Notes under the pieces: generated by a model | Database searches by the model: none | The model's input: only the letters and a program-made list of their open reading frames with translations | Told to the model about the DNA's origin: nothing | Program-made: the position numbers and the translations under genes | Assembly (NCBI RefSeq): GCF_006715145.1 | Contig: NZ_VFMR01000001.1 | Coordinates: forward strand, 1,364,001 to 1,428,000 | Length of the DNA: 64,000 bases | Reading direction: 5' to 3' | From: Microbacterium sp. SLBN-146 | GTDB lineage: Bacteria > Actinomycetota > Actinomycetes > Actinomycetales > Microbacteriaceae | Shown: piece after piece, positions 6,984-46,574 of the stretch | Layout of the letters: every line of letters begins with the position of its first letter | Position numbering within the stretch: the first letter of the stretch is position 1

Positions 6984-7020
6984 GGCGGCACCGATCTCAC
7001 AACGAGGAAGAAGGAAGCGA

Positions 7021-22064: not shown

Positions 22065-22078
22065 TGTTACCGGTATCA
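22065..22078. promoter_or_regulatory. LacI-type operator in the GH10 promoter
   Basis: TGTTACCGGTATCA fits TGTTANCGNTAACA with one mismatch. It lies wholly inside the spacer of a promoter TTGTGC (22057-22062) / TACGGT (22080-22085) with 17-bp spacing. Related sites precede the GH43-1, GH43-2 and WxL genes. Confidence 0.65.
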
Positions 22079-22158
22079 CTACGGTGTGCAGGGAACGGGA
22101 TGCCGGAGCGCCCCCCACCGCATCCGTTCGACCACCCAGCGCAAAGGAGTGCTTCGTG

Positions 22159-23571
22159 ATGACTGTGCCCGCAGCAAGACGCGCAGGGCGGTGGACGACC
22201 TCGATCGCCATCGGTGTCCTCGCCAGCGCCCTCGCCCTCTCCGCCGTGACGGCAGCTTCGGCGGCCGATCCTGAGACGCGTCTGAAGGACACGGCGCCGT
22301 TCCGTGTCGGCGTCGCGATCGACCAGCGCGAGACGAGCGGTGACCCCGGACGCGTCGTGACAGAGCACTTCGACCAGGTCACGGCTGAGAACCACATGAA
22401 ACCCGACGCGTGGTACGACGGGCAGCGGACGCTCCGCATCCATCCGCAAGCCGCCGCGATCGTGGACTTCGCGGACGAGCGGGGTCTCGACGTCTACGGC
22501 CACACGCTCGTGTGGCACAACCAGACGCCCGCGTGGTTCTTCCAGACGGCCTCGGGGCAGCCGCTGTCGACGAGCGACGCGGATCGTTCGATCCTCCGCG
22601 AGCGCATGCGCACGCACATCTTCGGCGTCGCACGACTGCTCTCCGAACGCGACGGACTCTTCGGTGCGGGCAACCCGCTCACGGCGTTCGATGTCGTGAA
22701 CGAAGTCATCAGCGACGGGCCGGAGGCCGATGGCCTCCGTCGGAGCGAGTGGTACCGCGTCCTGGGCGAGGAGTTCATCGACCTCGCGTTCCGCTACGCG
22801 GACGAGGCATTCAACGAGACCTACGCGGCACCGGACACCGATCGCCCGGTCGTTCTCTTCATCAACGACTACAGCACCGAATGGGATGCCAAGCGCGCCC
22901 GGTATCTCGCGCTCGTGGATCGCCTTCTGGCGCGAGGGGTGCCCGTCGACGGCGTAGGACACCAGTTCCACGTCAGCATGTCGCTGAACGTCGCTGCCCT
23001 CGCCCGCGCGATCGACGCGTTCGCGGATCGACCCGTGACGCAGGCCGTCACGGAGTTCGACGTCCCCACCGGTACGCCCGTGACGACCGCCGCGCTCGAC
23101 GCGCAGGGCGCGTACTACCGAGCGGCGTTCGAGGTGTTCCACGCGCGCAAGGACCACCTGTACTCCGTGAGCGTATGGGGCCTCAATGATTCGCGCAGCT
23201 GGCGTGCGGCCGACGGGGCACCCTTGATGTTCTTCGACGATCTGACAGCCAAACCCGCCCTCGTCGGAGCGCTCGCGGCGGCGCCCGCGCCCGCTGTCGC
23301 CGTCGCGGCCTCGTCTCGCTGCGTCGGCGGGCGGGTCGTCCTCGTCGTGACGTCGACGAACCTCGCAGACGCGGCGAAGACCTTGCAGACATCCTCGGCC
23401 TTCGGGGGCCGTGACTTCTCGGATGTCGCGAGCGGCCGAAGCGTCGCGCACGCTCTCTCGACGCGTGCTGTCTCCATCCCGGCGGGTGGCGTGACGGTGA
23501 CTGCGGAAGGGGGAGCGACCGTATCGGCGCTCTACCCGGCTGTGACGTGCTCCGCTGCCGCGCCCCGCTGA
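22159..23571 (+). CDS. Secreted GH10 endo-beta-1,4-xylanase
   Basis: A 470-residue secreted xylanase. Signal peptide 1-35 (TAASA-ADPE), GH10 domain about 45-370 with acid/base Glu182 in DVVNEVIS and nucleophile Glu299 in VTEFDVPTG, plus HTLVWHNQTPAWFF and SVWGLNDSRSW as expected for the subsite loops. It cleaves internal bonds of (arabino)xylan outside the cell. Residues about 383-470 form the two-cysteine C-terminal module shared with the three GH43 enzymes downstream. AAAGGAG precedes; GTG 22156 is an alternative start one codon upstream. Confidence 0.95.
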   Translation: MTVPAARRAGRWTTSIAIGVLASALALSAVTAASAADPETRLKDTAPFRVGVAIDQRETSGDPGRVVTEHFDQVTAENHMKPDAWYDGQRTLRIHPQAAAIVDFADERGLDVYGHTLVWHNQTPAWFFQTASGQPLSTSDADRSILRERMRTHIFGVARLLSERDGLFGAGNPLTAFDVVNEVISDGPEADGLRRSEWYRVLGEEFIDLAFRYADEAFNETYAAPDTDRPVVLFINDYSTEWDAKRARYLALVDRLLARGVPVDGVGHQFHVSMSLNVAALARAIDAFADRPVTQAVTEFDVPTGTPVTTAALDAQGAYYRAAFEVFHARKDHLYSVSVWGLNDSRSWRAADGAPLMFFDDLTAKPALVGALAAAPAPAVAVAASSRCVGGRVVLVVTSTNLADAAKTLQTSSAFGGRDFSDVASGRSVAHALSTRAVSIPAGGVTVTAEGGATVSALYPAVTCSAAAPR

Positions 23572-23648: not shown

Positions 23649-23662
23649 TGTTAACGGTAACA
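23649..23662. promoter_or_regulatory. LacI-type operator before GH43-1
   Basis: TGTTAACGGTAACA is a palindrome about a central CG and defines the TGTTANCGNTAACA pattern. It overlaps the -10 region of a possible promoter TTGCAT (23634-23639) / TAACAC (23658-23663). A second CG-centred palindrome, CTACAACGTAG, lies at 23602-23612 and resembles the other operator class at 43.8 and 46.7 kb. Confidence 0.7.
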
Positions 23663-23730: not shown

Positions 23731-26664
23731 ATGCCCGAAACCTCGACCGCACCCGCGTCGCGCACAGTGAGATGGGTCGTCTTCGCAGCGGCCGCATCGC
23801 TGTGCCTCGGGGTCGTCGCACCGACGCCCGCGACGGCTGAGCCGATCGACGACGTGACCGAAGGTCTCGTTCATCACTTCCCGCTCGACGAGACCTCCGG
23901 AACCGTTCTGGCGAACACCGGATCGGCAGGTGCCGCGGCCAACGCGAGCATCGTCAACGCCGACAATGTCGAGCTGACCGGCGAGGGAGTGCGTTTCAAC
24001 CCGGAGGAGTACGCCTACTCGCTCGCGGGCGGATACGCGCAGCTTCCGAACGACCTCACGGCCGGGATGACAAACGTCACGATCGACTACGACATCTGGA
24101 TCGATCCCGCAAACGTCGGCGAGCACCAGATCTGGAGCCTCGGCAACAAGACGTCCTGCGACGCCACGACGGGTCAGCAGGGCCAGCTGTTCTCCTCGAA
24201 CACGCAGCGCCTCCGTGTCGGGGCGGGCAACGTCAACGTCCAGCAGAACCGCGTGCGTCTGCCCGAGGGTGTCTGGAAGCACGTCACCTATACGCAGGCG
24301 CTGAACGAGAACGGCACGAGCTGGACGGGCACCCTCTTCGTCGACGGCGTGCAGCACGCCCAGGCGACGAACATCACGACGGCTCCGTCCGTCAATGCCG
24401 CCGGAACGAACTGCAACTACCTCGCGCGGTCGCAGAACCCCGGCAACTACGCCTTCCGTGGCACGCTGTCCGACTTCCGCGTCTATGACCGGGCGCTCAG
24501 CACGGGCGAGATCACGCAGCGCGCGCACACGGGCAACGAGACGGGTGTGCAGGAGGATGCCGCGGCGATCGACCTCGGACTCACGTCGGCGGTTGTGGAG
24601 AACCTCGAGCTGCCCAAGACGGGCTCCGTCGCGGGATCGACGATCACGTGGTCGACGTCCGACCCGTCGGTCATCGACGTCGTGACGCCGCCCGCGGCCA
24701 ACAGTGCGCGCAAGGTCCCGATCCGCGGTGTCATCACGAGGCCCGCGCTCGGCCAGCCCGACGCGACCGCCGTCCTGACGGCCACGCTCCGCAAGGGCTC
24801 CGATTCGCAGACCGTGCGGGAGATCCCCATCACGGTGAAGGCCGAGATGGGCACGACGGAGTCCGTCGCCCGCGACACGCTCGAGCTCGAGCTGCACTCC
24901 ATCGACAGCATCCGGGGCAACATCGACCTTCCTTCGACGGGAACCTGGGGCTCCACGATCACGTGGGAGTCGACCACCGAGGCCATCTCTGCCACGGGTG
25001 AGGTCACGCGGCCGTCCTACGGTCACGAGGAGATCTCGGCGACGCTCACGGCGACGATCACGAAGGACGGGGAGTCGCTCACGAAGTCGTTCGACGTCGT
25101 CGTCGAGCCGCTTCCTCGCGAGGAAGAGATGGAGCGATACTTCCTCGGCTACTTCAAGGGAGAGGGGCAGGCGGACGGCGAGCAGATCATGTTCGCGACC
25201 TCCAACGGCAACACGGCCCTCGACTGGACAGGCCTCACGGGCGGAATGCCGTCGCTCGTCTCGCAGCTCGGCGACCAGGGTCTGCGCGACCCGCACATCG
25301 TCCGCTCGCCCGACGGTGACACGTTCTACATGATCGCGACCGACCTCAACTGGTACGACCAGGGCGGATACGCCATCAACGACACCCAGTACATCGAGGT
25401 GTTCGAGTCGAACGACCTCGTGAACTGGACGCCGCAACGCCACGTCAAGGTGGCTCCCGACAACGCCGGCAACGCGTTCGCTCCCGAGTCGCTGTGGGTC
25501 GACGAGATCGGCGCCTACGCCGTCTTCTGGGCGCAGTCGCTGTGGAACGACCCGATCAACCGCACGGGTCAGGGCAACGCGCAGATGTGGTACAACATCA
25601 CGCGCGATTTCCAGACCTTCTCGGAGCCGAAGGTCTGGCAGAACCCCGCGCCGCTGTCGCGCATCGACACCACGGCGATCAAGGTCGGCGACACGTACTA
25701 CCGCGTCACCAAGAACGAGGCGGGCAACGCGGGGTCGGACCTCTTCTCTGAGAAGAACACCGACTTCCTCGACAGCGACATCAACGCGTGGGAGCTCATC
25801 GCTCCGGCGCTCGGACGCACGACGTGGCAGGCGAACGCCGGCTACGAGGGTCCCGTCATCTTCGAGGCCAACCCGGGTGACACCGCATGCCCCGGTCAGT
25901 TCTACCTGTGGGGCGACCGCTACACCAACGGCGGCGGGTACCAGGCGGCGTGCGAGGCGAACATCGAGGCCCCGACGTGGCAGCCCAAGGCGATCACGAT
26001 GACCAACGCGGGCGTCCAGCGCCCCCGCCACGGCACCGTGATCCCGCTGACGCTGCGCGAGTGGAACAACATCCGCGGCATCCCGAACAGCGACGTCGAC
26101 ACCACGACCGAGGTCTCGGTCGACGACGTCACCGTGGGCGAAGCCGCGGTTGCCACGGCATCCGTGACGGCTGCCGACACGTTCGAGACCGGCGGTCAGG
26201 TGCGCTTCTCGCTCGGCGAGTGGTCGCAGACCGCGTACCTCGAGAACGGTGAGGCGTCGGTGACGCTGCCGGCCGACCTCGAGGTCGGGGCGCAGGAGAT
26301 CACGGCCGAGTTCCTGGGCCACGACATCCTGCTCGCGTCGGATGCCACGGCATCCTTCGAGGTCGCTCCGAGCGTGGCCGCATCGGTCACGGTGACGAGC
26401 CGCTGCATCGCAGGCAAGGTGCTCCTCACGGTCGTGACGAAAAACGACGACGCGCGCCCGCTGACCGCCACGATCGAGACCGCCTTCGGAAAGCGCGAGA
26501 GCGTGTCGATCGCCGCCGGGAAGAGCGCCGCGCACGCGTTCACGACCCGGATGTCGTCGGTCCCCGCGGGGTCGGTGACGGTATCGGTCACGGCTGCCGG
26601 GGACTCCGGCACCGATGACGCCGTGTACGTGACGGAGCATCGCCCTCTGTCCTGCACGTCCTGA
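23731..26664 (+). CDS. Secreted multidomain GH43 glycosidase (GH43-1)
   Basis: A 977-residue secreted enzyme. Order: signal peptide (to about 36, ATA-EPID), LamG/concanavalin-like domain (about 45-265, LVHHFPLDETSGTVLANTGS to FRGTLSDFRVYDRALS), two small bacterial Ig-like domains (about 275-460), GH43 five-blade propeller (about 460-775; base Asp in LRDPHIVRS, general acid Glu in NAGYEGPVIFE), an Ig-like domain (about 785-880) and the shared two-cysteine C-terminal module. GH43 enzymes of this build remove arabinose or xylose side groups or cut arabinan; the exact bond is uncertain. A strong terminator follows, so it is probably its own unit. Confidence 0.92.
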   Translation: MPETSTAPASRTVRWVVFAAAASLCLGVVAPTPATAEPIDDVTEGLVHHFPLDETSGTVLANTGSAGAAANASIVNADNVELTGEGVRFNPEEYAYSLAGGYAQLPNDLTAGMTNVTIDYDIWIDPANVGEHQIWSLGNKTSCDATTGQQGQLFSSNTQRLRVGAGNVNVQQNRVRLPEGVWKHVTYTQALNENGTSWTGTLFVDGVQHAQATNITTAPSVNAAGTNCNYLARSQNPGNYAFRGTLSDFRVYDRALSTGEITQRAHTGNETGVQEDAAAIDLGLTSAVVENLELPKTGSVAGSTITWSTSDPSVIDVVTPPAANSARKVPIRGVITRPALGQPDATAVLTATLRKGSDSQTVREIPITVKAEMGTTESVARDTLELELHSIDSIRGNIDLPSTGTWGSTITWESTTEAISATGEVTRPSYGHEEISATLTATITKDGESLTKSFDVVVEPLPREEEMERYFLGYFKGEGQADGEQIMFATSNGNTALDWTGLTGGMPSLVSQLGDQGLRDPHIVRSPDGDTFYMIATDLNWYDQGGYAINDTQYIEVFESNDLVNWTPQRHVKVAPDNAGNAFAPESLWVDEIGAYAVFWAQSLWNDPINRTGQGNAQMWYNITRDFQTFSEPKVWQNPAPLSRIDTTAIKVGDTYYRVTKNEAGNAGSDLFSEKNTDFLDSDINAWELIAPALGRTTWQANAGYEGPVIFEANPGDTACPGQFYLWGDRYTNGGGYQAACEANIEAPTWQPKAITMTNAGVQRPRHGTVIPLTLREWNNIRGIPNSDVDTTTEVSVDDVTVGEAAVATASVTAADTFETGGQVRFSLGEWSQTAYLENGEASVTLPADLEVGAQEITAEFLGHDILLASDATASFEVAPSVAASVTVTSRCIAGKVLLTVVTKNDDARPLTATIETAFGKRESVSIAAGKSAAHAFTTRMSSVPAGSVTVSVTAAGDSGTDDAVYVTEHRPLSCTS

Positions 26665-26753: not shown

Positions 26754-26779
26754 AGTTAGCGCTCACATAACGATGTGAG
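26754..26779. promoter_or_regulatory. Operator region before GH43-2
   Basis: AGTTAGCGCTCACA (26754-26767) fits TGTTANCGNTAACA at 12 effective positions, and an overlapping perfect inverted repeat CTCACAT-AACG-ATGTGAG occupies 26762-26779. A promoter TTACCG (26746-26751) / TAACGA (26769-26774) has 17-bp spacing and is covered by both. One or two repressors could act here. Confidence 0.5.
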
Positions 26780-26848
26780 CCCACGTCCCACCCCATGAGA
26801 AACAGCGCTCCGACGACGGAGCAGAAAAGACGGCGAGGGAGCCGAAAC

Positions 26849-29809
26849 ATGATGGAACAGACACCGGTCACAGCGCGACCGCAGTCGGGAGGGCGACGCT
26901 TCCGGCGACGCGCCCTGGCAGCTCTCACGGCGGGGGCGGTGGTGGGGGCGATGCTCCTGCCCGCCGCGCAATCCGCCGTCGCGGCGGAGGACTGGAATCC
27001 CGACTCCGGGTACACCTCCACCGACAACGGCGACGGCACGTATCGCGTACCGCTCATGAACGCCGACGTCCCCGATGTCTCGGTCGAGCGGATCCCCGCG
27101 TCCGAGAACGACGAGGGCCGCGACCTCTATTACATGATCAGCACGACGATGCACCTGAGCCCCGGTGCCCCCATCATGAAGTCCTACGACCTCGTGAACT
27201 GGGAGATCGTCAACTACGTCTTCAACCGCGCCGACATCAGCGACTCGTTTTCGCTGCGCAACGGCCAGACCTCTTACGGTCAGGGTCAGTGGGCGTCGTC
27301 GATCCGCTATCACGACGGCCTCTGGTACGTCGCGTTCAACACGAACAACCTCGGGGGCTCCTACCTCTACACGACCGACGACATCGACGACGGCACGTGG
27401 GATCGCATCAAGCTCCCCGGCACGTACCACGACCCGTCGCTCTTCTTCGATCTCGACGGCACGCCCTACATCTTCTACGGCTCGGGTTCGACGAGCGCGG
27501 TGCGCCTGAGCGCCGACTTCACGACGGTCCTCCAGACCTACAACCAGATCATCCGCCCGGCCGACTACCCCGGTGCTCCCGTCGGCGGCCTCTTCGAGGG
27601 CGCGCAGGTCACCTACATCGACGGCAAGTACTACATCGTGATCATCACGTGGCCGTCGGGACAGGGCCGCCAGGTCGTGCTGTTCCGTTCGGACCACCTG
27701 CTCGGACGCTATGCGACCGAAGACGGATCGAACCCCTACGAGGCGAAGGGCGTTCTCAACTCCAACGGCTTCGCCCAGGGCAGCCTTGTTCCGATCGAGC
27801 AGGAGGACGGCGAGCTCAACTACTGGGGCATGTTCTTCCGCGACACGTTCCCGATCGGCCGCATCCCTGCCCTCATCCCCGCGACGTGGGGCGAAGACGG
27901 ATGGCCGGTGTTCGGCAACAACGGCAGCGTGCCCCTCAACGGCTCGTTCGCCAAGCCGATCCAGCTGAGTCCTGAGGAGGAACTCCTCGAGCGTCAGAAG
28001 AGCATCGTCGTCTCGGACGACTTCGCCAACGACGCGCCCCACCGGTCCTACATGGACGAGATCTGGGAGATCCCGGCCGGACCCGACATCGACGAGTCCC
28101 TGCTGGGCGTCGAGCTCATCGAGAACGGCGGCTTCGAGAACGGCACCGCGGGCTGGATCGTGAACGACACGGCGACGCTCGCAACGACGACGGATGCCGC
28201 AACGGGCACCGCTGCGGCGCAGGTCACGGCGCGGCAGACGACAGGCTCCGGTCCGGCTCAGGTCGTTTCGGGCAAGGTGCAGCACAACGTCACGTACGAC
28301 ATCACGGCGCGCGTCAAGTACGAGAACCCTGCGAGCCCCGCGACGAAGCAGTTCTTCGTGACCGCGCGCTACGGCTCGAGCACCTTCACCAACCTGGCGT
28401 CGGTGACGGCGCAGCGCGGCCAGTGGGCGACCATCACGGGATCCTTCACGGTGCCGGCGTCGCAGAACCTCGACACGATGCGCATCTTCGTCGAGACCCC
28501 GTGGACCGCGTCGCCCCAGACAGCCCCTGACACGCACCTCATGGACTTCAAGGTCGATGACGTGTCGCTCAAGGGCCGTTCGATCCCCGCGGGGCCGCAC
28601 CCCGATGAGATCGCACCGACCGACTCGCGCCTGGACATCCAGTGGGAGTGGAACCACGCTCCCGACAACCGCTACTGGTCGCTGACCGACCGCGACGGTT
28701 GGCTGCGACTGACCAACGGCACGACGGTCACCGGTGAGTTCCGCCACTACAAGCTCGCGAACGACGACGAGCTCACGTGGCTGGAAGAGACGCGCAACAC
28801 GCTGTCGCAGCGCACGTTCGGCCCGAGCCAGTCGGCCGAGACGAAGCTCGACATCAGCGGCATGAAGAACGGGGATGTCGCGGGTCTCGCGGCCTACAAC
28901 CGGAACTTCTCCTACGTCGCCGTCAAGCGTGTCAACGGGGTCAACACGGTCGGTGTCGTCAACCGCTCGCTGCCCTTCACGGCAGCGATCGATCAGGCGG
29001 CGATCGAGACGTTCATCCCCGGGACGACGGCCAACCTCGGCACCGCGACCGAAGTCCACCTCAAGGCGGACCTCGACTTCGCGAACCCGACGGGTCAGCT
29101 GTGGACGACGTTCTACTACAGCCTCGACGGCCTCACGTGGAACCAGCTCGGCAACCGCGTCGGTCCGCAGGCGCTCGATGGGGCGCTGTCGCACTTCATG
29201 GGCCACCGCGTGGGTCTGTTCACGTATGCGACGCAGGAGACGGGCGGTCACGTCGACTTCGACCACTACCTGCTGAGCAAGGTGCGGACGGCCCAGAACC
29301 TGCCGCTCGACACGTCTGACCTCGACGCCGCCATCGCGCACGCGCAGGGCCTCGACGCGTCGGACTACCCGGCCGAGAGCTGGACGGCGATGCAGAAGGA
29401 ACTCACGAAGGCCGTCTCGGCCCGCGCGGGTCAGTTCGGGTCGCAGAACCAGGTCGACGCTCCCGAACGTGCGCTCAGCCTCGAACTGGCACGACTGGGA
29501 GTCGCGAAGCTCGACGAACCCTCGCTCGCCGTCACGATGTCGACCACCACGCGTTGCGTGGCCGGCAAGGTCGTGCTCGCGGTCCAGGTGAAGAACGAGG
29601 ACGAGGTCCCCGTCAGCGTCGAGATCGAGACCGACTTCGGAAAGAAGACCGTGGCTGTGGCAGCCGGCAAGGCGTCCGCGCACGCGTTCACGACGCGCGC
29701 CGTGTCCGTCCCTGCCGGTGACGTCACCGCCACGGTGTCGGCGACCGTCGACGGAGAACCCGTCACGGTGAACGTCGAAAGCCCCTACGAGCCGCGCAGC
29801 TGCAGCTGA
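26849..29809 (+). CDS. Secreted GH43 beta-xylosidase-like enzyme with inserted CBM (GH43-2)
   Basis: A 986-residue secreted protein. Signal peptide to about 46 (AVA-AEDW). The GH43 propeller (about 50-400) is of the beta-xylosidase/arabinofuranosidase type: ADVPDVSVERI (base Asp), TMHLSPGAPIMKSYDLVNWE, YHDPSLFFD, and general acid Glu in GGLFEGAQV. The C-terminal beta-sandwich normally runs from SDDF to LDIQWEWNHAPDNRYWSL, but here a CBM4_9/22-like domain (about 430-585, ENGGFENG to HLMDFKVDDVSL) is inserted within it. A short helical segment and the two-cysteine module finish the protein. GAGGGAG precedes the chosen start; an ATG 54 bp earlier has no ribosome site. Confidence 0.9.
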   Translation: MMEQTPVTARPQSGGRRFRRRALAALTAGAVVGAMLLPAAQSAVAAEDWNPDSGYTSTDNGDGTYRVPLMNADVPDVSVERIPASENDEGRDLYYMISTTMHLSPGAPIMKSYDLVNWEIVNYVFNRADISDSFSLRNGQTSYGQGQWASSIRYHDGLWYVAFNTNNLGGSYLYTTDDIDDGTWDRIKLPGTYHDPSLFFDLDGTPYIFYGSGSTSAVRLSADFTTVLQTYNQIIRPADYPGAPVGGLFEGAQVTYIDGKYYIVIITWPSGQGRQVVLFRSDHLLGRYATEDGSNPYEAKGVLNSNGFAQGSLVPIEQEDGELNYWGMFFRDTFPIGRIPALIPATWGEDGWPVFGNNGSVPLNGSFAKPIQLSPEEELLERQKSIVVSDDFANDAPHRSYMDEIWEIPAGPDIDESLLGVELIENGGFENGTAGWIVNDTATLATTTDAATGTAAAQVTARQTTGSGPAQVVSGKVQHNVTYDITARVKYENPASPATKQFFVTARYGSSTFTNLASVTAQRGQWATITGSFTVPASQNLDTMRIFVETPWTASPQTAPDTHLMDFKVDDVSLKGRSIPAGPHPDEIAPTDSRLDIQWEWNHAPDNRYWSLTDRDGWLRLTNGTTVTGEFRHYKLANDDELTWLEETRNTLSQRTFGPSQSAETKLDISGMKNGDVAGLAAYNRNFSYVAVKRVNGVNTVGVVNRSLPFTAAIDQAAIETFIPGTTANLGTATEVHLKADLDFANPTGQLWTTFYYSLDGLTWNQLGNRVGPQALDGALSHFMGHRVGLFTYATQETGGHVDFDHYLLSKVRTAQNLPLDTSDLDAAIAHAQGLDASDYPAESWTAMQKELTKAVSARAGQFGSQNQVDAPERALSLELARLGVAKLDEPSLAVTMSTTTRCVAGKVVLAVQVKNEDEVPVSVEIETDFGKKTVAVAAGKASAHAFTTRAVSVPAGDVTATVSATVDGEPVTVNVESPYEPRSCS

Positions 29810-29897: not shown

Positions 29898-32315
29898 GTG
29901 CAACCACACGAAAAGCGACGGACCCGAATCCGGGCCGTCGCGATGGCAGCAGCAGGCGTGCTGCTCGCGGCGGGAATCGCCGTCACAGCACCGGCGAACG
30001 CAGCCGACGAAGAGCTCATCGTCAACGGTGGCTTCGAGAGCGGCGTGCAGCCGTGGTTCCCGAACAACGGCAACGCCACTGACGGCGCGACGTTGAACGT
30101 CACCACCGACGCCTACTCCGGCAGCTCGGCGATCCGGGTCACGGGCCGCACGACGACCGGTTCCGGTCCGATGCAGGACCTGTCGGGCAAGGTGCAGGCA
30201 GGGCAGACCTACACGGTCAAGGCCCGCGTCAAGTACGACAACCCGGAGAGCCCTGCGACGAAGCAGTTCTTCATCACGATGCACTACGGCGGCGGGACAT
30301 ACACGAACCTCGCCAGCACGACCCCGGCGCGCGGCGCATGGGGCTCGATCAACGCGACGTTCACCATCCCGGCCAGCCAGAACGTCACGACGGCCCGCAT
30401 CTTCGTCGAGACGCCCTGGACCGCGTCGCCCCAGGATGCCCCGAACACCCACCTCATGGACTTCGTCGTCGATGACGTCTCGGTGATCGGAACGCCTCCG
30501 CCCCCGCCGCCCTCGAAGACCGTCGAGGTCGTCGGCAAGCTCCCCGGTGAGCACAACCCGCTCATGGGGCACAAGTTCGGAGCCGACGGCTACGGATTCG
30601 TGCACGAGGGTCGCGTGTACATGTACATGACGAACGACACGCAGGGATACGCCCCGGACCCCGTCACGGGCATCTCGCCGTCGATCAACTACGGCAACAT
30701 CAACCAGATCACGCTGATCTCGTCGACCGACCTCGTCAACTGGGTCGATCACGGTGAGGTCCAGGTCGCAGGATCGACCGGCGTCGCGCCGTTCACGAAC
30801 AACTCGTGGGCGCCCGGCATGGCGAGCAAGGTCGTCAACGGTCAGGAGAAGTTCTTCCTGTACTACGCCAACGGTGGTGGATCGAGCAACGTGATCACCG
30901 GTGACTCGCCCATCGGTCCGTGGACGAGCCAGCGTACGAGCACGCTCATCAACGGCAGCACCCCCGGTGCCGCCGGTGTCAGCTGGCTCTTCGACCCGGC
31001 TCCGCTCGTGGACGATGACGGAAAGGCGTACCTCTACTTCGGTGGTGGCCCCGCCTCGACGAGCTTCCCCGCTGCCGAGCGCTTCAACAACCCGAAGAAC
31101 ATCCGCGTGATCGAGCTCGGCGACGACATGGTGTCGACGCAGGGCACGGCGGCAGTCGTCGACGCGCCCGTCGCGTTCGAGGCGGCGCAGGTGTTCAAGC
31201 GCGGCGAGAAGTACTACCTGTCCTACTCGTCGCACTTCGGCGGAAACGACTTCGGCGGCAGCCAGACGCCGGCTCCGGGCTACCCCGGTGGCGGTCAGAT
31301 CGGCTACATGATGTCGGATGACCCGATGTCGTGGCCGAAGGAGACCTACGCCGGTGTCATGTTCCCGAACCAGTCGCAGTTCTTCGGAACCGGGACCGGC
31401 GGCAACAACCACCAGTCGGTGTTCGAGTACGAGGGCAAGTACTACTTCACGTACCACGCCCCCACGCTCAACAAGCGGATCAACGGCAACACGACGCAGG
31501 GTTACCGCAGCGCCCACATCCAGGAGCTCACGTTCAAGGAAGACGGCACGGTCAACCAGGTGGTCGGCACGTACGCCGGAGTCGACCAGGTTCGCGACTT
31601 CGACCCGTTCCGCACGTTCGAGGCGGAGACGCTCGGATGGACGAAGGGCATCGCGACGGCGAAGATCGACGGCGCATCGACCGAGTTCGGTGCAGGCACG
31701 CCGAACCTCGTCGTGAAGGACATCGACAACGGTGACTGGACCGGTCTGTCGTCGGTCGCCTTCGGCGACAACGGCGCCCAGTCGGTGACCGTCAAGGTGA
31801 AGCCGCTGCAGACCGGCGGCCAGATCCAGGTGCGCGCGGGAAGCGAAGACGGTCAGGTTCTCGGCACCATTCCGGTGACCGGTACCGTCGGCCAGTGGAC
31901 CGAGCTGACGGCCGACCTCGAAGGTGCAACGGGGACGCACGACGTCTTCTTCACCTACAGCGGCCCGGCCGGCGATCTGTTCGAGCTCGACACGTGGGCC
32001 TTCACGGAGGCGTCCGCTGCACCGCAGCTCGACGTCACCGCGTCGGCGTCGCTCCGCTGTGTCGCAGGCAAGGCGATCGTCGCCGTCACGGTTACTAACA
32101 ACGACGAGGCCGCGGCTGCGGTCGAGATCTCGTCGATGTACGGGTCCAAGACGGTCGCATCCGTCGCACCGGGCAAGGCCTCGAGCCACGCGTTCACGAC
32201 GCGTCTCGCGAACCTGCCGGCGGGGGAGATCTCGGTCTCCGCTTCCGCGACGGTCGGCGGCGAGCTGGTCGGGTCCGACGTAACCGCGTCGTACCCGGCG
32301 CGTAGCTGCGGCTGA
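29898..32315 (+). CDS. Secreted GH43 arabinofuranohydrolase-like enzyme (GH43-3)
   Basis: An 805-residue secreted protein with GTG start behind AAGGAGAG. Order: signal peptide (to about 35), CBM4_9/22-like domain (about 38-195), proline linker (PPPPPPS), GH43 domain (about 205-560) with NPLMGHKFGADGYGFV (base Asp), FDPAPLVDDDGKAYLYFGG and FEAAQVFKRGEKYYLSYS (general acid Glu), CBM6-like domain (about 572-705, FEAETLGWTKGI to FELDTWAFTE), and the two-cysteine module. The GH43 plus CBM6 arrangement is that of arabinoxylan arabinofuranohydrolases such as XynD. Its CBM is the closest relative in the window of the one inserted in GH43-2. Confidence 0.92.
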   Translation: MQPHEKRRTRIRAVAMAAAGVLLAAGIAVTAPANAADEELIVNGGFESGVQPWFPNNGNATDGATLNVTTDAYSGSSAIRVTGRTTTGSGPMQDLSGKVQAGQTYTVKARVKYDNPESPATKQFFITMHYGGGTYTNLASTTPARGAWGSINATFTIPASQNVTTARIFVETPWTASPQDAPNTHLMDFVVDDVSVIGTPPPPPPSKTVEVVGKLPGEHNPLMGHKFGADGYGFVHEGRVYMYMTNDTQGYAPDPVTGISPSINYGNINQITLISSTDLVNWVDHGEVQVAGSTGVAPFTNNSWAPGMASKVVNGQEKFFLYYANGGGSSNVITGDSPIGPWTSQRTSTLINGSTPGAAGVSWLFDPAPLVDDDGKAYLYFGGGPASTSFPAAERFNNPKNIRVIELGDDMVSTQGTAAVVDAPVAFEAAQVFKRGEKYYLSYSSHFGGNDFGGSQTPAPGYPGGGQIGYMMSDDPMSWPKETYAGVMFPNQSQFFGTGTGGNNHQSVFEYEGKYYFTYHAPTLNKRINGNTTQGYRSAHIQELTFKEDGTVNQVVGTYAGVDQVRDFDPFRTFEAETLGWTKGIATAKIDGASTEFGAGTPNLVVKDIDNGDWTGLSSVAFGDNGAQSVTVKVKPLQTGGQIQVRAGSEDGQVLGTIPVTGTVGQWTELTADLEGATGTHDVFFTYSGPAGDLFELDTWAFTEASAAPQLDVTASASLRCVAGKAIVAVTVTNNDEAAAAVEISSMYGSKTVASVAPGKASSHAFTTRLANLPAGEISVSASATVGGELVGSDVTASYPARSCG

Positions 32316-32323
32316 GCAGTTCC

Positions 32324-32353
32324 CCCGGGGGCGGGATTCGTCCCGCCCCCGGG
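32324..32353 (+). terminator. Stem-loop terminator after GH43-3
   Basis: CCCGGGGGCGGGA and TCCCGCCCCCGGG form a perfect 13-bp stem closed by a TTCG tetraloop, 8 bp after the stop codon. Confidence 0.9.
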
Positions 32354-32383: not shown

Positions 32384-32397
32384 TGTTCGCGGTAACA
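32384..32397. promoter_or_regulatory. LacI-type operator in the WxL gene promoter
   Basis: TGTTCGCGGTAACA fits TGTTANCGNTAACA with one mismatch and overlaps the -10 of a good promoter, TTGTGA (32370-32375) / TAACAT (32393-32398), spacing 17. This ties the surface-protein genes to the xylanase regulon. Confidence 0.65.
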
Positions 32398-32513
32398 TGA
32401 ACGCGCGTCGCCTGACCACAAATCCCGGGCCAGACACAATGCGACGACCGGACTGTCCGGTGGTCTTGCGTTCCGATCGACGTAGGTGTCGATCGGAGAA
32501 AAGGAGTCATACA

Positions 32514-33164
32514 ATGAAGTTTTCCCAGGGGCTGTCAGCCCGTATCGCCGTCGCCGCGGCGGGGAGCCTCGTGCTCGCGGGCGCAGCTGGAGCAGCGTTC
32601 GCCGCAGACCCGTACGGTGACGAGAACGTCGACGTCAACGTCGAGATCTCGCCGCTCGTCGAGCCCGGCTCGCTGAGCCTCACGGTCGCGGGCACGTCGT
32701 CGACGCTGACGGAGGTCGCTTCGGGCGATGCCGAACTCCGACAGTTCGACGGCGAACTGCCTGTCGTGACCGTCACCGACACGCGTACCGCCGATGAGAT
32801 CGGCGCGGACCGCTTCTGGTACGTCCTCGGCCAGTCGACCGACTTCGTCGGCTCGAACGGTCAGCCCAACATCTCCGCGGGCAACCTCGGATGGACGCCG
32901 GACCTCGTCGACGACGCCGGCGACGGTCTTGTCATCCTGGGAGACCAGGTCGACACCGTCGAGGACACCGGTCCGAACGCGGTCGGACTGGTCGACCAGG
33001 AGTTCCTGTACTCGGCGTTCGACTCGGCGGCGCTCGTCGAGGCCGGCGGTACGTCGTGGTCGGCGACGGCCGGACTGTTCCTCAAGACGGGCATCGATGT
33101 CGCCCCCGGTTCGTACCAGTCGACCCTGACCCTCTCGCTCTTCGAGGACGTCTACGAAGACTGA
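32514..33164 (+). CDS. WxL-like secreted surface protein
   Basis: A 216-residue protein with a signal peptide (to about 31, AAFA-ADPY) and one beta-rich domain. The pattern (GELPVVTVTDTRT, FWYVLGQSTDF, ISAGNLGWTPDL, then AGLFLKTGIDVAPGSYQSTLTLSLFED) matches the WxL-like domain that in Firmicutes binds the cell wall and the DUF916 partner. A homologous domain forms the C-terminus of the esterase at 43863. AAAAGGAG precedes the ATG. It is followed by a stem-loop and then its likely membrane partner. No cysteines are visible. Confidence 0.75.
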   Translation: MKFSQGLSARIAVAAAGSLVLAGAAGAAFAADPYGDENVDVNVEISPLVEPGSLSLTVAGTSSTLTEVASGDAELRQFDGELPVVTVTDTRTADEIGADRFWYVLGQSTDFVGSNGQPNISAGNLGWTPDLVDDAGDGLVILGDQVDTVEDTGPNAVGLVDQEFLYSAFDSAALVEAGGTSWSATAGLFLKTGIDVAPGSYQSTLTLSLFEDVYED

Positions 33165-33198
33165 CCGGTAGCCTTCTCCTCGCGGGAAGACACCCTCT

Positions 33199-33230
33199 GA
33201 GAACCGGGGTCCTCACAGACCCCGGTTCTC
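33199..33230 (+). terminator. Stem-loop between WxL and DUF916-like genes
   Basis: GAGAACCGGGGTC and GACCCCGGTTCTC form a perfect 13-bp stem with a 6-nt loop. No promoter is obvious behind it, so it may reduce but not abolish expression of the next two genes, giving more WxL protein than membrane partner. Confidence 0.8.
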
Positions 33231-33266
33231 GGCATCCGGCCTCGATTCGAAACTGGTGATGCGAGC

Positions 33267-34370
33267 ATGCACAAGAGCGCCTCTCGATCGGCACACATCG
33301 TCGCGTGGGCGACCATGGGGTTGCTGGCGTTGCTCTCGGTGTTCCCTGCGAATGCGGCGACGGCAGACGACGCCGCCGACATCACCTGGTCGGTCACTCC
33401 GGCGACGGAGGCCGGTCCCGACCAGCGAGGCGTCATCCAGCAGGAACTCGATCCCGGTGCGACGGCAAACGACTACTTCGCCGTCCGCAACCTCAGCCGC
33501 ATCGAGGTCACCTTCAGCCTCAGCGCGGCCGACGGGTACTACACCGACACCGGCCGGTTCAACATGCTCCCCTCCGACCAGGAGTCGGTGGATGCCGGCA
33601 CCTGGATCGAGCTTCCCGACACCGTGACGGTCGGACCCAACGAGACCGTCGTCGTGCCGTTCACGATGACGGTTCCCGACGACGCGATCCCCGGCGATCA
33701 CGCGGCCGGGATCGCGGCATCCGTCCTCTCCACCGGGACAGATGCGGGCGGGTCGTCCGTCGGCGTCGAGAGCCGTGTCGGTTTCCGGGTCCTGACCCGG
33801 GTGACGGGCGACATCGTGCCGGCCGTCGAGGTCGCCCAGGTCGAGACATCGTACGCGACATCGTGGAACCCGTTCCGGCCCGGTGCGGGGTCGGTGACCT
33901 ACGAAGTGCGCAACACCGGCAACGCGAGCGTCATCGTGGCCGGCGTCGTGAGCGCAGGAACCGGTTCCGCCGAGTTCCCGGGGGCCGACGAGCCGCGGCA
34001 AGAGCTTCTCCCCGGCGAGAGTCGCCGGTTCACCACTGTCGTGACCGACGTGTGGCCGACGTTCATCGCTCCCGTGTCGGTCGCGCTGGCGCCGACGGCA
34101 TACGACTTCGGTGGCGATCCCGTCGCCATCGATCCCCTCGTCGCCGATGCGACGATGTGGGCCATCCCGATCCCGCAGCTGATCGTGCTGCTCGGTATCG
34201 GACTCATCCTGGCGGCGATGTTCTGGGGCCGCCGACGCTCACGCCGCAAGCTCGAGGCGGCACTCGCGGTGGCACGCGAAGAAGGAATGGCGGCGGCAAT
34301 GCAGACGCCTGCCACAAGCTCCATGGTTCTGGGGAACCATCCGACTGAAGAAAGCAAGGACAGTTCATGA
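33267..34370 (+). CDS. DUF916/WxLIP-like membrane protein
   Basis: A 367-residue protein with a signal peptide (to about 31), two extracytoplasmic beta-sandwich domains (about 36-175: ITWSVTPATEAGPDQRGVI, ELDPGATANDYFAVRNLS, VVPFTMTVPDDAIPGDHAAG; about 185-285: VTYEVRNTGNASV), one transmembrane helix (about 292-313) and a basic cytoplasmic tail (RRRSRRK). This is the layout of DUF916 WxL-interacting proteins, which hold WxL proteins at the surface. It overlaps the next gene as ATGA. Confidence 0.75.
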   Translation: MHKSASRSAHIVAWATMGLLALLSVFPANAATADDAADITWSVTPATEAGPDQRGVIQQELDPGATANDYFAVRNLSRIEVTFSLSAADGYYTDTGRFNMLPSDQESVDAGTWIELPDTVTVGPNETVVVPFTMTVPDDAIPGDHAAGIAASVLSTGTDAGGSSVGVESRVGFRVLTRVTGDIVPAVEVAQVETSYATSWNPFRPGAGSVTYEVRNTGNASVIVAGVVSAGTGSAEFPGADEPRQELLPGESRRFTTVVTDVWPTFIAPVSVALAPTAYDFGGDPVAIDPLVADATMWAIPIPQLIVLLGIGLILAAMFWGRRRSRRKLEAALAVAREEGMAAAMQTPATSSMVLGNHPTEESKDSS

Positions 34371-34630
34371 GTTTCCCCATTTCGCTCCGTCCGGGTGACG
34401 TCGACGGTGACGCCGTCGTCGTCGACGTCGACATCACGCCGATGCCGACGCCGACGCTCTCCCCGACGCCCAGTCCGTCGCCGACGAGCGGTGGAACTCC
34501 CGATTGGCTCGCCGTGACCGGCATGGAGCCAGGGTGGATGCTGCTGGCGGCCGCGGCCGTCCTGATCGCGGTGGGTGTCGTCTTCACGCTGCGTCACCGG
34601 CTCCGCACGCGCGGCCGCGCCGACGACTGA
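34367..34630 (+). CDS. Small protein with LPXTG-like C-terminal sorting signal
   Basis: An 87-residue protein: acidic N-terminus (residues 10-25), a Pro/Thr/Ser stretch (PMPTPTLSPTPSPSPTSGG), then LAVTG, a hydrophobic segment (about 56-72) and a basic tail (RHRLRTRGR). The C-terminal half is a variant cell-wall sorting signal (LAVTG in place of LPXTG). There is no N-terminal signal peptide from the ATG, which has AAGGA 7 bp upstream and overlaps the previous stop. In Firmicutes csc loci a small LPXTG protein also accompanies WxL and DUF916 genes. Confidence 0.65.
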   Translation: MSFPISLRPGDVDGDAVVVDVDITPMPTPTLSPTPSPSPTSGGTPDWLAVTGMEPGWMLLAAAAVLIAVGVVFTLRHRLRTRGRADD

Positions 34631-43343: not shown

Positions 43344-43658
43344 TCACCTCGCCCCGCGCGTCCGGCGACGCAGAGGCGGGCGAGCGGGGATGGGGTTCGG
43401 CCGCCGACCTGACCGCGGGACGACGGCGCGGCCATGTTCCATCGCGGCGTCGAGGACCTCTTTGAGGGTCGTGTACGTCTGCACTCCACCCCCGCCGCGC
43501 ACCCAGGCGACCTCGTACTCGCCCGTGCCGCGGAGCTCGATGTAGGCCACGATGCTGTCGGCGTCGCTGGGGTCGAAAGCGCGGTCGCACAGACGCCACG
43601 CGGTGCGGTTGAGCGCGTGGACGATGAGCCGGTGTTCCGCGTCGGACTCGATCGTCAT
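43344..43658 (-). CDS. Small protein of unknown function
   Basis: A 104-residue protein I do not recognise. Residues 1-75 look folded, with two helices (EHRLIVHALNRTAWRLCDRA; TLKEVLDAAMEHGRAVV) around a beta hairpin (SIVAYIELRGTGEYEVAWVR). The last 25 residues are Arg/Pro-rich and may be disordered. It converges with the ROK gene (1-bp gap). The chosen ATG has AGAGG upstream; longer frames run into the esterase promoter. Confidence 0.55.
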   Translation of the reverse strand: MTIESDAEHRLIVHALNRTAWRLCDRAFDPSDADSIVAYIELRGTGEYEVAWVRGGGGVQTYTTLKEVLDAAMEHGRAVVPRSGRRPNPIPARPPLRRRTRGAR

Positions 43659-43733
43659 GAGGCAAGCCTCTGTCACATTCGCTGTCTCCTGAAGGGGGTT
43701 GACAAGGCGATCGCGGTGAATCGCAACCAAATA

Positions 43734-43811
43734 TACAACGTGAGAAATTGCACCTTGACAGGCCTGCGCGTGACGGCCAGTGTGGTGAAGAGATGGATGT
43801 ACGACGTTGTA
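43734..43811. promoter_or_regulatory. Two TACAACGTTGTA-like operators before the esterase gene
   Basis: TACAACGTGAGA (43734-43745, 9 of 12 to TACAACGTTGTA) and TACGACGTTGTA (43800-43811, 11 of 12) are 66 bp apart, close to six helical turns, and flank a TTGACA hexamer at 43755-43760. A pair of such sites also precedes the isomerase gene at 46744, so both units probably share one LacI-type regulator. Confidence 0.6.
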
Positions 43812-43862
43812 AATCCGCTTCGGGATTCTCGTTGTCGTGCACACGATGAGAGGAAATCGAAG

Positions 43863-46574
43863 GTGAGAGAGACCCAATCAAGACGGCGTCGCCGTCATCG
43901 CCGTACGTGGACCGCACTGGTTACAGCGGTCGTCGTGGGAGCGGGGTCGCTTCTCGCGGCGCAGCCCGCCACCGCGGCGGACGACCCGTGGGTGGCGGAA
44001 GTGCCCAACCCGTTCCCCGACCTGTACCGCTTCACGGTTCCCAATGCCGCGATTCAGCCGGCGACGGGCATCACCGGGACGGTCGTCGCCGTGGAAGGCA
44101 ACTTCGCGCCCGGGAAGACCTGGACGACGCTCAACATGGGGTCGAGCGGAGGGAACTGGACGTCGACGATCGGCCCCCTCGATCCCGGCCTCTACTACTA
44201 CCAGTACACCGCGCGGCCGGCATGGAATCAGGATGCCGTCGCCTTCCGCAACCCGGCGAGCCCGCAGCAGGTCACGTCGAAGCCGGCATGGAACACGCTC
44301 TTTGTGCCGGGTCCGGGTGCCGAGTGGTTGGCGGACGTGCCGTCGGGCGGTGAGCTGCAGGAGATCACGTACGAGAGCACGGTCGCGGACGCGGATCGCT
44401 CGGCACTCGTATGGACTCCGCCGAGCTACGACGAAGACCGCGAGGAGCCCTATCCCGTGCTCTACCTCCTGCCGGATCAGGGGCGGAGCTATCGCGAGTG
44501 GACGGAGCTCGGGCGGCTGAAGCAGATCCTCGACAATCTCGCCGTGGAGGGCGACATCGAGCCGATGGTCGTCGTCATGGGCGACGGTGATTCGACCGAC
44601 GCGCGCGTGGAGGTGCTGGACAACATCGTTCCGGCCGCCGAGGACGGATTCAACGTCTCCGACGATCCGGCGGATCGTGCGATCGCCGGCATCGGGCGCG
44701 GCGCGTCGCAAGCGCTGACCCTGCTCCTGACCGACACGGGTGAGTTCTCGCAGGTCGGGTCGTTCTCGGGACGACTGGTCAGCAGCGTCAGTGCGACCAA
44801 GGCTGCGCAGATCAACGACGCGACGGACCTCATCCGGATCTACGCGGGCAACGTCACCGACCCCGCCTATGGCTCCACGGTCAGCCTCGTCGACAAGTTC
44901 GCCGCCGCGGGGGTCGAGTTCCAGTCGGACGGCTCCGACCCCGAAACCGGCGGCACGTGGGACACGTGGCAGAAGAGCCTTCACGACTTCGCCCAGCGAC
45001 TGTTCCAGGCGGACGGTGACGCAGGACCGAGTGAGGGCCATCTTCCGTTCACGCCGCACTCCCTTCCGGCGCCGGGGACGACGCCGACGCCGTGGGTCGA
45101 CGAGAACGGTGTCGTGACCTTCGAGACCGGCGCGGAGTTCGCCGATGCGAACAACGTCACGGTCTGGGGCAACTTCGGACCGTCCGGCAGTTGGCCGAGG
45201 ACGCCCATGGTCAAGCAGCCCGATGGACGCTGGCGGCTCACGATCCCGCTCGAGGGCGGCTCCTACTACTACAAGTTCGTCGTGGAGGGCTCCGATCGCA
45301 AGGACGCGAGCAACCCGACGAGCGTCACCTCGGAGCCGAACTGGAGCACGTTCTTCGTGCCGGGAGACACTCTTCGCGGTCGCTATACGGGCGATGTCCC
45401 TGAGGGCGAGCGCGGAGCGGTCTCGATCATGTCGTACACGAGCACGGCGAACAGTCAGGAGCGTTCGGCGTACGTGTGGACGCCACCCGGGTACGACCCG
45501 GAGCGCCAGGATGCATACCCCGTCTTCTATCTCCAGCACGGCGGTGGGCAGACCTGGACCGACTGGATCGAGGTGGGGCGCGCGGCGCAGATCCTCGACA
45601 ACCACTACCGCAACGGCGACATCGTTCCGATGGTGGTCGTGATGGCCAACGGCAACGGGGTCAACTTCCCGAACGAGATCCGTACGCGGATCGTTCCGGC
45701 CGCGGAAGCCTCGTACAACGTCAGCGACGATCCCGAGGACCGTGCCCTCGCGGGCCTGTCGATGGGGTCGGGTGCCGCCCTCAGCACGCTGTGGGCCGCG
45801 CCGGGCGAGTTCGCCTACATCTCCGGATTCTCGGCGTTCGGCAGTGTGCCGGGCAACGCGGATGTCGAGGCCATCAACGCCGGGACCACACTGCTGCGCA
45901 TCTACACCGGCGACGTACAGGACTTCACGTACCAGAACACGCTGAGTCTCATCGCGTCGATGGAGAACCGCGGAGTCGAGCACGAGTTCGCTCCCGTGAT
46001 CCCCGGTCCGCACAGCTGGGACGTCTGGCAGAAGGCGCTCATCGACCTCCTCCCACGGTTGTTCACGGCCGACACGAGCGCGGGCATTCCGCTGGAAGCC
46101 GTCATCCCGGAGGGTGAGAACGGCGTCCTCGCCGTGTCGGTGGCCGACTTCGGTGAGCTCGTGTCCTTCTCGTCCCCCGAGAACGTCGGAGATCGCCTGC
46201 GGATGACCACGATGCTGCCGGAGGTGACGATCACGGATTCGCGGACGGCGCAGCAGGCCGGCGTCGGTGGATGGTCGGTGAGCGGTCACGCCGATGCCTT
46301 CACCTCGGCGGGTCAGACTCTGACGGCGGATCACCTCGGGTGGACGCCCCAGCTGCTGACGCCGCGTCCTGGTCTGTCGGCGGGCGCGCCGGTGGAAACG
46401 ATTCTCGACGGCGGTCCGGGGCTCGAGGCGCCGGCCGATCTGGGGTCGGCGACGGCCGAAGGGCGCTTCGGCACCGCGACGTTCGGAGCGGACCTCGAGC
46501 TGGAGGTGCCGGTCGGCACGCAGCCCGGCACGTACTCCGGGCTGCTCATGGTGTCGCTCTTCCCCATCGACTGA
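43863..46574 (+). CDS. Secreted tandem CE1-type esterase with WxL-like C-terminus
   Basis: A 903-residue secreted protein, GTG start with AGAGG upstream. Order: signal peptide (to about 39), [early-set/CBM48-like domain + CE1-type esterase domain] twice, then a WxL-like domain (about 745-903). The second esterase has GLSMGSG with nucleophile Ser633 and PGPHSWDVW with His717. In the first copy the same places read GIGRGAS (Gly278) and TGGTWDTW (Gly364), so it should be inactive. The second copy likely removes feruloyl or acetyl groups from arabinoxylan (XynZ/feruloyl esterase relatives); the exact ester is uncertain. The C-terminal domain suggests surface attachment. Confidence 0.88.
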   Translation: MRETQSRRRRRHRRTWTALVTAVVVGAGSLLAAQPATAADDPWVAEVPNPFPDLYRFTVPNAAIQPATGITGTVVAVEGNFAPGKTWTTLNMGSSGGNWTSTIGPLDPGLYYYQYTARPAWNQDAVAFRNPASPQQVTSKPAWNTLFVPGPGAEWLADVPSGGELQEITYESTVADADRSALVWTPPSYDEDREEPYPVLYLLPDQGRSYREWTELGRLKQILDNLAVEGDIEPMVVVMGDGDSTDARVEVLDNIVPAAEDGFNVSDDPADRAIAGIGRGASQALTLLLTDTGEFSQVGSFSGRLVSSVSATKAAQINDATDLIRIYAGNVTDPAYGSTVSLVDKFAAAGVEFQSDGSDPETGGTWDTWQKSLHDFAQRLFQADGDAGPSEGHLPFTPHSLPAPGTTPTPWVDENGVVTFETGAEFADANNVTVWGNFGPSGSWPRTPMVKQPDGRWRLTIPLEGGSYYYKFVVEGSDRKDASNPTSVTSEPNWSTFFVPGDTLRGRYTGDVPEGERGAVSIMSYTSTANSQERSAYVWTPPGYDPERQDAYPVFYLQHGGGQTWTDWIEVGRAAQILDNHYRNGDIVPMVVVMANGNGVNFPNEIRTRIVPAAEASYNVSDDPEDRALAGLSMGSGAALSTLWAAPGEFAYISGFSAFGSVPGNADVEAINAGTTLLRIYTGDVQDFTYQNTLSLIASMENRGVEHEFAPVIPGPHSWDVWQKALIDLLPRLFTADTSAGIPLEAVIPEGENGVLAVSVADFGELVSFSSPENVGDRLRMTTMLPEVTITDSRTAQQAGVGGWSVSGHADAFTSAGQTLTADHLGWTPQLLTPRPGLSAGAPVETILDGGPGLEAPADLGSATAEGRFGTATFGADLELEVPVGTQPGTYSGLLMVSLFPID

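Follow-up and report, generated by a model that had tools for sequence, protein, structure and literature searches.

A WxL-like gene set of Microbacterium sp. SLBN-146 is associated with predicted xylan-degrading enzymes that share a C-terminal domain

A 64,000-nucleotide stretch of the genome of Microbacterium sp. SLBN-146 (NZ_VFMR01000001.1, positions 1,364,001 to 1,428,000), herein referred to as the window, contains three adjacent and co-directional genes, named A, B, and C, located downstream of a GH10 xylanase gene and three genes for GH43-type proteins (Table 1). A sequence-only reading of the window had recognized in this trio a WxL-like secreted protein, a DUF916-like protein with one C-terminal helix, and a small protein with a sorting-signal-like end. 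The analysis bears out each of these assignments, as well as the resulting csc-like composition: a WxL homologue, a WxL-interacting protein (WxLIP), and a small sorting-type protein. The three preceding genes had all been assigned to GH43; the genes at 26795 and 29898 pass the Pfam cut-off, and the match of that at 23731 stays below it. Two points were missing from the sequence-only reading, namely a strand common to A and C and a C-terminal domain (CTD) shared by the enzymes, which is the strongest link between the enzymes and the trio. The CTD enzymes are associated with the WxL gene set by position, co-occurrence, and operator, and we hold this association with high confidence.

The CTD is an Ig-like domain of about 90 residues, found at the end of the GH10 enzyme and of the three GH43-type enzymes. 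In total, 16 copies were found in this genome. The domain ends within 5 residues of the stop in 50 of the 51 copies first examined and in the other 8 copies of this genome. Its consensus contains one invariant arginine, two nearly invariant cysteines, and no tryptophan. No family over the cut-off was found for the CTD in Pfam or NCBIfam, both of which leave it unnamed, and a sequence search of solved structures gave nothing credible, the best match being a designed barrel (E 0.0096). Carriers of the CTD occur in many actinobacteria and include GH10, GH43, GH30, GH127, GH95, and esterase proteins. Esterases of the PF00756 class carry the CTD at one locus and a WxL domain at another; the WxL-like end noticed earlier in the esterase of the window was recovered in this analysis. 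An unusual carrier is a 1859-aa protein (L019:17-5596) consisting of ThuA, sorbosone dehydrogenase, PKD, CBM6, and CTD parts and encoded directly 5' of a small WxL gene.

Gene A is, judged by profile similarity, a divergent homologue of the WxL proteins of Bacillota. When a 40-row profile of A relatives was compared by hhalign with one built from ten rows of Bacillota WxL-cluster proteins, the two aligned at 93.8% probability (E 1.7e-7), while column-shuffled controls (n=30) gave at most 1.0%. The 121 aligned columns take in the D-x-R...W-x motif and the last strand. The ten-row profile alone gave this link; via a single Bacillota WxL sequence, the probability was only 0.7%. No match of gene A to Pfam or NCBIfam models was found at E of 1 or below. 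The Pfam WxL family (PF13731) has no match over its cut-off in the genome, and none of its five sub-threshold matches (E 0.05-0.22) is gene A. Among the matches listed, 4 of 120 A relatives bear the UniRef name "WxL domain-containing protein". Eight A-like places were found in the genome, one of them at the C-terminal end of the 43434 esterase. For the AlphaFold2 (AF2) model of A, donor-strand subunits of chaperone-usher pili and of the TasA type rank high, but the fold match is weak; type II cohesins are also among the weak matches (E 0.045 and 0.086). A sequence search of solved structures returned nothing credible for A or B. In one locus, a WxL-ended protein is encoded twice in tandem (L023:3186-4454 and 5773-7041) beside a WxLIP gene; the two copies agree in the first and last residues given.

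Gene B is, by its match to PF06030 (28.6 bits, cut-off 27.3), a WxLIP; no match to DUF3324 was found in it at E of 1 or below in Pfam. There are eight B-related places in the genome, and relatives of B are present in 36 of 120 genomes of the family. As DUF916 genes are said to lie often beside those for a type of protein that was studied from a Microbacterium (PMC12537917, available excerpt), such genes may not be new as such in this genus.

The co-occurrence of the CTD with gene A was analyzed in the same 120 family genomes and in 396 genomes of the order. Small A genes were delimited by the analyst's cut at a gap in E-values (below 1e-34 and below 1e-27, respectively); looser limits matched 14 of the 120 and 44 of the 396 genomes. 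In the family, small A was found in 8 genomes (19 copies) and the CTD in 16. All eight small-A genomes have the CTD (p 1.5e-8) and together hold 70 of the 80 CTD copies. A CTD lies within 5 kb of each of the 19 small-A genes, and for 13 of these it is located 74-533 bp upstream on the same strand; gene B stands beside 11 of the 19 (in one case at 1.5 kb). In the order, small A was found in 29 genomes, the CTD in at least 47, and both in at least 28 (p 2.9e-29). Genomes with both belong to Microbacterium, Rathayibacter, Agromyces, Arthrobacter, Glycomyces, and Sanguibacter, among others, and at least 13 CTD copies occur in those where 13 were counted. Among the matches listed, small A was present in 20 of 22 order genomes with three or more CTDs, and only 2 of 15 genomes with weaker, mostly large WxL matches carried the CTD; it is thus the small type of A to which the CTD is linked.

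The positional association extends across genera. Of 29 named loci found by A, 22 have a CTD, in each case within 10 kb if only the 27 foreign loci with full flanks are considered (22/27). Of these 27, 10 contain B, and in 13 a CTD gene has its stop fewer than 700 bp 5' of A. Thus, the trio is not scattered in relatives without association with glycoside hydrolases, in agreement with the neighbourhood expected from the sequence-only reading. A protein search with B gave 14 records of a plasmid collection, five of which were read. CTD proteins were found beside A-B in the three small-A records (Cellulosimicrobium pCPRO01, Clavibacter phaseoli pCCh, and Nonomuraea), and no CTD was found within the stretch read in those of Embleya (large WxL) and Rossellomorea (Bacillota). 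Since such modules (L081, L085) are located on plasmids of Cellulosimicrobium and Clavibacter phaseoli, the set of CTD enzyme, A, and B could move as a unit.

The LacI-type operator seen earlier in the promoters of the GH10, GH43, and A genes was also confirmed. With up to two mismatches, the palindrome TGTTANCGNTAACA has four sites in the window, located 5' of the GH10 gene, of two GH43-type genes, and of A, where 0.24 are expected; none of 100 shuffles reached four. In the whole genome (3.6 Mb), seven sites were found with at most one mismatch, compared with one for a reversed-pattern control. Each of the seven precedes a CTD or A gene; three are in the window, two stand 5' of a CTD gene at 1509 kb, and one each is found 5' of an A gene at 1513 kb and a CTD gene at 1565 kb. 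Across the 630 kb of 32 relative loci, 19 sites with at most one mismatch were found versus 0, 0, 0, 2, 5, and 8 for six control palindromes, and 42 versus 0-35 with at most two; this enrichment is partly built in because the loci were chosen by A. By the analyst's reading of the coordinates, 18 of the 19 sites precede either an A gene or a CTD gene (its start or its open frame) by no more than about 450 bp. The operator is thereby predicted, from its sites, to be shared by A and the CTD-enzyme genes. A LacI-type gene, recognized by eye, follows A-B at the 1513-kb locus and at L065 and L070. The hairpin between the last GH43 gene and the operator of A is a possible transcript end.

Table 1. 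Features of the window and two sortase genes of the same genome (positions are those of the window unless marked as genome)
Feature	Position	Strand	Details
GH10 xylanase with C-terminal CTD	22156..23571	+	PF00331; start GTG 22156 or ATG 22159 by eye
CTD of the GH10 enzyme	23299..23559	+	
GH43-type protein with LamG, Ig, and C-terminal CTD	23731..26664	+	GH43 match 28.1, below the Pfam cut-off of 32.2
CTD of the 23731 protein	26383..26661	+	
GH43 enzyme with C-terminal CTD	26795..29809	+	passes Pfam cut-off
CTD of the 26795 enzyme	29534..29806	+	
GH43-CBM6 enzyme with C-terminal CTD	29898..32315	+	passes Pfam cut-off
CTD of the 29898 enzyme, seven-stranded, Ig-like	32037..32312	+	AF2 predicted local distance difference test (pLDDT) 97.2
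Hairpin between last GH43 gene and A operator	32324..32353	+	13 bp, perfect, TTCG loop; -33 kcal/mol, z -3.7; 1/200 shuffles as stable
LacI-type palindromic operator TGTTCGCGGTAACA upstream of gene A	32384..32397	.	one of 7 genome sites with at most 1 mismatch
Operator upstream of the GH10 gene	22065..22078	.	at most 1 mismatch
Operator upstream of the 23731 gene	23649..23662	.	perfect
Operator upstream of the 26795 gene	26754..26767	.	2 mismatches
Gene A, small WxL-like secreted protein, 216 aa	32514..33164	+	signal peptide by eye; AF2 pLDDT 83.6
Mature N-terminal strand of A, DENVDVNVEIS, proposed exchangeable strand	32619..32651	+	residues 36-46; recurs in alignment of relatives
Gene B, WxL-interacting protein (PF06030/DUF916), 367 aa	33267..34370	+	one C-terminal hydrophobic (membrane) helix by eye
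Gene C, short sorting-type protein, 87 aa	34367..34630	+	strand VVVDVDITP, Pro/Thr/Ser spacer, LAVTG sorting-type signal; overlaps B by 4 bases
Esterase (PF00756) ending in a WxL-like domain instead of a CTD	43434..46574	+	domain about 46104-46562, E 7.4e-9
Two sortase genes, one directly adjacent to a CTD gene, the other at ~1 kb distance from a WxLIP gene	genome 1569464-1569877 and 2090934-2091185	- and +	

The product of gene C ends in LAVTG, followed by a hydrophobic stretch and a basic tail; its match to NF058582 (LAVTG, NCBIfam) reaches 24.4 bits, below the cut-off of 27. No signal peptide was seen by eye in C as annotated or in its three closest relatives (P0141-P0143), and these four proteins may be inserted N-out through the single helix; signal peptides are present in copies elsewhere, e.g., in L074 and L055. 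In 30 Actinobacteria loci (the window and L047-L075), 11 C-type proteins were found by sorting-signal searches near A or B and by reading 3' of B in nine loci. Their common feature is a strand [VIL]x[VIL]xVxIxP (without P in L062), in most cases combined with a sorting end, and in L074 the mature peptide has only about 24 residues. The copies of the window, L048, L051, L062, L063, L066, L073, and L074 were first found by sorting-signal criteria alone. Those of L055, L056, and L070 were picked by eye with the motif in mind, after which a script requiring the strand motif re-extracted these three and L074. The sorting-signal criteria alone also returned a 540-aa protein at L021, located beside a different WxLIP and devoid of the strand. 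In the C-type proteins at L055:11750-12600 and L070:11782-12500, the strand is followed by long repeats (GNPG or KPDKPD), and the stretch read showed no plain sorting signal for them. Five sortases are encoded in the genome, two of them near CTD or WxLIP genes (Table 1).

The strand of C resembles the mature N-terminus of A, which has low confidence and is poorly placed in the AF2 monomer model. Against a profile of 28 N-terminal strands of A, all 11 C peptides scored above nearly all of their own shuffles (p 0.0002-0.007), and none of 42,247 windows in the bodies of CTD enzymes reached 8 bits. The C of the window was used whole up to the sorting motif because it has no signal peptide. In csc loci of Bacillota plasmids, the sorted protein and the small WxL protein are also alike at their mature N-termini, with a consensus other than that of Actinobacteria, e.g., VETEGTVSFTG/VTTDGTIEFTA in E. 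mundtii and YDSNGVTSF/YNSNGQITF in E. innesii; the E. faecium pair is hardly alike. Six Bacillota pairs were obtained from five of the seven loci read (of 17 plasmid records); in the remaining two, no sorted gene is annotated. In E. innesii, the third of three WxL genes was paired with its CscD. Four of the actinobacterial copies (L051, L063, L066, and L073) are close relatives, and L063 and L073 were left out of the resulting 15 C-A pairs. Six of these 15 passed the shuffle test at 0.05. Taken over both phyla, matched pairs scored better than permuted ones (p 0.0014), a difference that does not hold within Bacillota (p 0.064) or within Actinobacteria (p 0.64). The match is therefore one at the level of the phylum, and a locus-specific pairing of the two strands is not supported within either phylum. 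Mean scores within the phylum exceeded those across phyla for 14 of the 15 C peptides, which are partly related. Two further candidates were rejected: a donor strand in front of the CTD is not general, with windows scoring at least 7 in 4 of 51 enzymes, and the N-terminus of B matched the A strand profile at p<0.05 in 2 of 19 cases, which gives no support, several of the segments not being cut at the mature end.

We propose that A, B, and C likely form a wall-anchored platform, to which the CTD is predicted to attach the putative xylan-degrading enzymes; the chance that this complete reading is correct seems slightly better than even. The sequence-only reading had already spoken of a platform holding arabinoxylan-degrading enzymes or their substrate. 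The holding is likewise something that we infer, and a physical display of the enzymes on the platform, taken by itself, is fairly probable. A LacI-type repressor would release the whole gene set when breakdown products of arabinoxylan are present. The enzymes would leave the cell with the CTD at the C-terminus, by which they would dock on the WxL platform or the adjoining wall, and the esterase would carry the WxL domain itself instead of the CTD. The WxL protein would be an incomplete β-sandwich, to which the membrane-anchored B would first lend a strand; the strand of C, fixed to the peptidoglycan by sortase, would then replace that of B, and the N-terminal strand of A may serve the next A likewise. 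A published AF2 complex of an E. faecium WxL protein and WxLIP, as far as the excerpt goes, has an incomplete sandwich completed by a strand of the partner. Also in excerpt, the CscD peptides are described as having very low mutual homology and proposed to anchor other Csc proteins by unknown interactions (PMC1534035), and the N-terminal WxL strand is placed on a long loose linker and may rearrange (PMC9772566). The role of C as a wall-anchored donor strand for WxL is a tentative suggestion, rated somewhat below even.

Several observations limit or correct this picture. Literal W-x-L motifs are absent from A, and W-x-V and L-x-L were found instead in all 33 small relatives aligned. In a genome of the same genus (G106), a trio of GH43-CTD genes much like that of the window has no A- or B-type genes in the 16.5 kb read (L093, C1:353000-369500). 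Seven of the eight CTD genomes without A among the 120 were read around the CTD, and a WxL/WxLIP pair was found there in only one (G007); a WxLIP exists somewhere in the genome for five of the eight. Conversely, G194 has A-B without a CTD in 19 kb. As CTD genomes without WxL genes near the CTD exist, the CTD is not strictly in need of small A. Two published definitions also do not fit. A WxL cluster, in the excerpt available, requires a WxLIP together with two or more WxL genes, no more than four genes apart (PMC10599100), and here A stands alone beside B, with the WxL-ended esterase ~9 kb away. CscD proteins are defined, again in excerpt, by a signal peptide and an LPxTG-type motif with 40-60 residues between them (PMC1534035); the C of the window has the LAVTG-type end, and no signal peptide was seen in it. 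Since several defining features fail, the locus is not a strict member of the WxL clusters, although it would work like one.

An account without docking would explain the same association by adhesion: A would bind xylan and thereby hold the cell to its substrate, the CTD would be a module of freely secreted enzymes that binds the substrate or the wall, and only the regulation would be shared. The binding of cellulose and xylan by L. brevis WxL proteins (PMC9026416, available part) fits this account, as do the CTD enzymes without WxL genes nearby and the CBM4_9 or CBM6 modules that Pfam finds in two enzymes of the window. It is nevertheless rather unlikely, given that the co-occurrence is near absolute from the A side (at least 28 of 29 genomes) and that the CTD is C-terminal in all but one of the 51 copies. 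Many carbohydrate-binding modules contain tryptophan, which the CTD consensus lacks. The C-terminal position, the invariant arginine, and the two nearly invariant cysteines could also, by analogy, suggest a signal for export or sorting, recognized by a machinery of its own that includes the WxL set. Type 9 secretion of Bacteroidota reads a C-terminal domain in this way. Ordinary signal peptides were seen by eye on the CTD enzymes of the window, and none of A, B, and C reaches the cut-off of any protease or ligase family, other exporters not having been searched for; such a signal is highly improbable.

A further alternative concerns the strands: that of A would complete its own sandwich, that of C would bind B or be a spacer, and the likeness of A and C would reflect generic β-strand composition. 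The likeness is indeed not locus-specific within either phylum, and in published models the N-terminal strand lies across the WxL platform of the domain to which it belongs (PMC9772566, in excerpt). Yet very few shuffles of any of the 11 C peptides fit the A strand profile as well as the peptide itself, scores are higher within than across phyla for almost all of the partly related C peptides, and the A strand is poorly placed in its own monomer model, which makes this alternative doubtful. Donation by C, as proposed above, would in its widest form make the WxL clusters of Actinobacteria and Bacillota a donor-strand surface-assembly pathway, with WxL proteins as gapped pilin-like subunits, WxLIP as a chaperone that is tethered to the membrane and lends a strand, large WxL proteins and WxL-ended enzymes as tips, and CscD as the sortase-anchored strand by which the base of the assembly is plugged into the wall. 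In Actinobacteria, this pathway would carry xylan-degrading enzymes via a new docking domain, the CTD, as a counterpart of the cellulosome. This generalization is speculative and has about the same standing as that alternative.

The locus resembles the Bacillota WxL/csc clusters (CscA-D; PMC1534035, PMC9772566, PMC10599100, all as excerpted) in having a small WxL protein, a DUF916/WxLIP protein with a C-terminal helix, and a very small sortase-type protein, as well as in the proposed role in the use of plant polysaccharides. It differs from them in the lack of a literal W-x-L, of a large WxL gene inside the trio, of a recognized DUF3324, and of a signal peptide in C, in its actinobacterial host, and in its ties to carbohydrate-active enzymes, which consist of a common domain of these enzymes and a common operator. 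Firmicutes account for over 91% of 938 known WxL sequences (PMC9772566, in excerpt). As in the WxL proteins of L. brevis and Enterococcus that bind cellulose and xylan, WxL is tied here to arabinoxylan; there, the WxL protein itself binds the polysaccharide, and no enzyme tail domain is described in the available part of the text (PMC9026416). Like cellulosomes, the locus combines secreted carbohydrate-active enzymes that share a terminal module with a nearby gene for a surface protein. Unlike the cohesin-dockerin pair of cellulosomes, the CTD is an Ig-like sandwich, and no dockerin or cohesin match was found with Pfam in A, B, C, or the enzymes scanned (E 1, 0.01, and 1e-5). The proposed logic, in which an incomplete sandwich is completed by a strand of the partner, is that of donor-strand exchange in chaperone-usher pili and TasA fibres; here, by contrast, no usher was seen, the host is Gram-positive, the strand is of the sortase type, the fold match is weak, and polymerization is putative. 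Neither a CTD link nor a strand role for CscD is described in the open-licence WxL literature among the matches listed, and no anchoring of enzymes in Microbacteriaceae was found in open-licence literature.

This association suggests that the unnamed CTD probably serves in surface attachment. It also connects a surface system of which little is understood with the breakdown of plant polysaccharides, by positional and operator evidence. Two questions are made testable, namely the purpose of the very short CscD proteins and the way in which WxL proteins attach to the wall. A new enzyme-anchoring module would, in addition, be useful for surface display.

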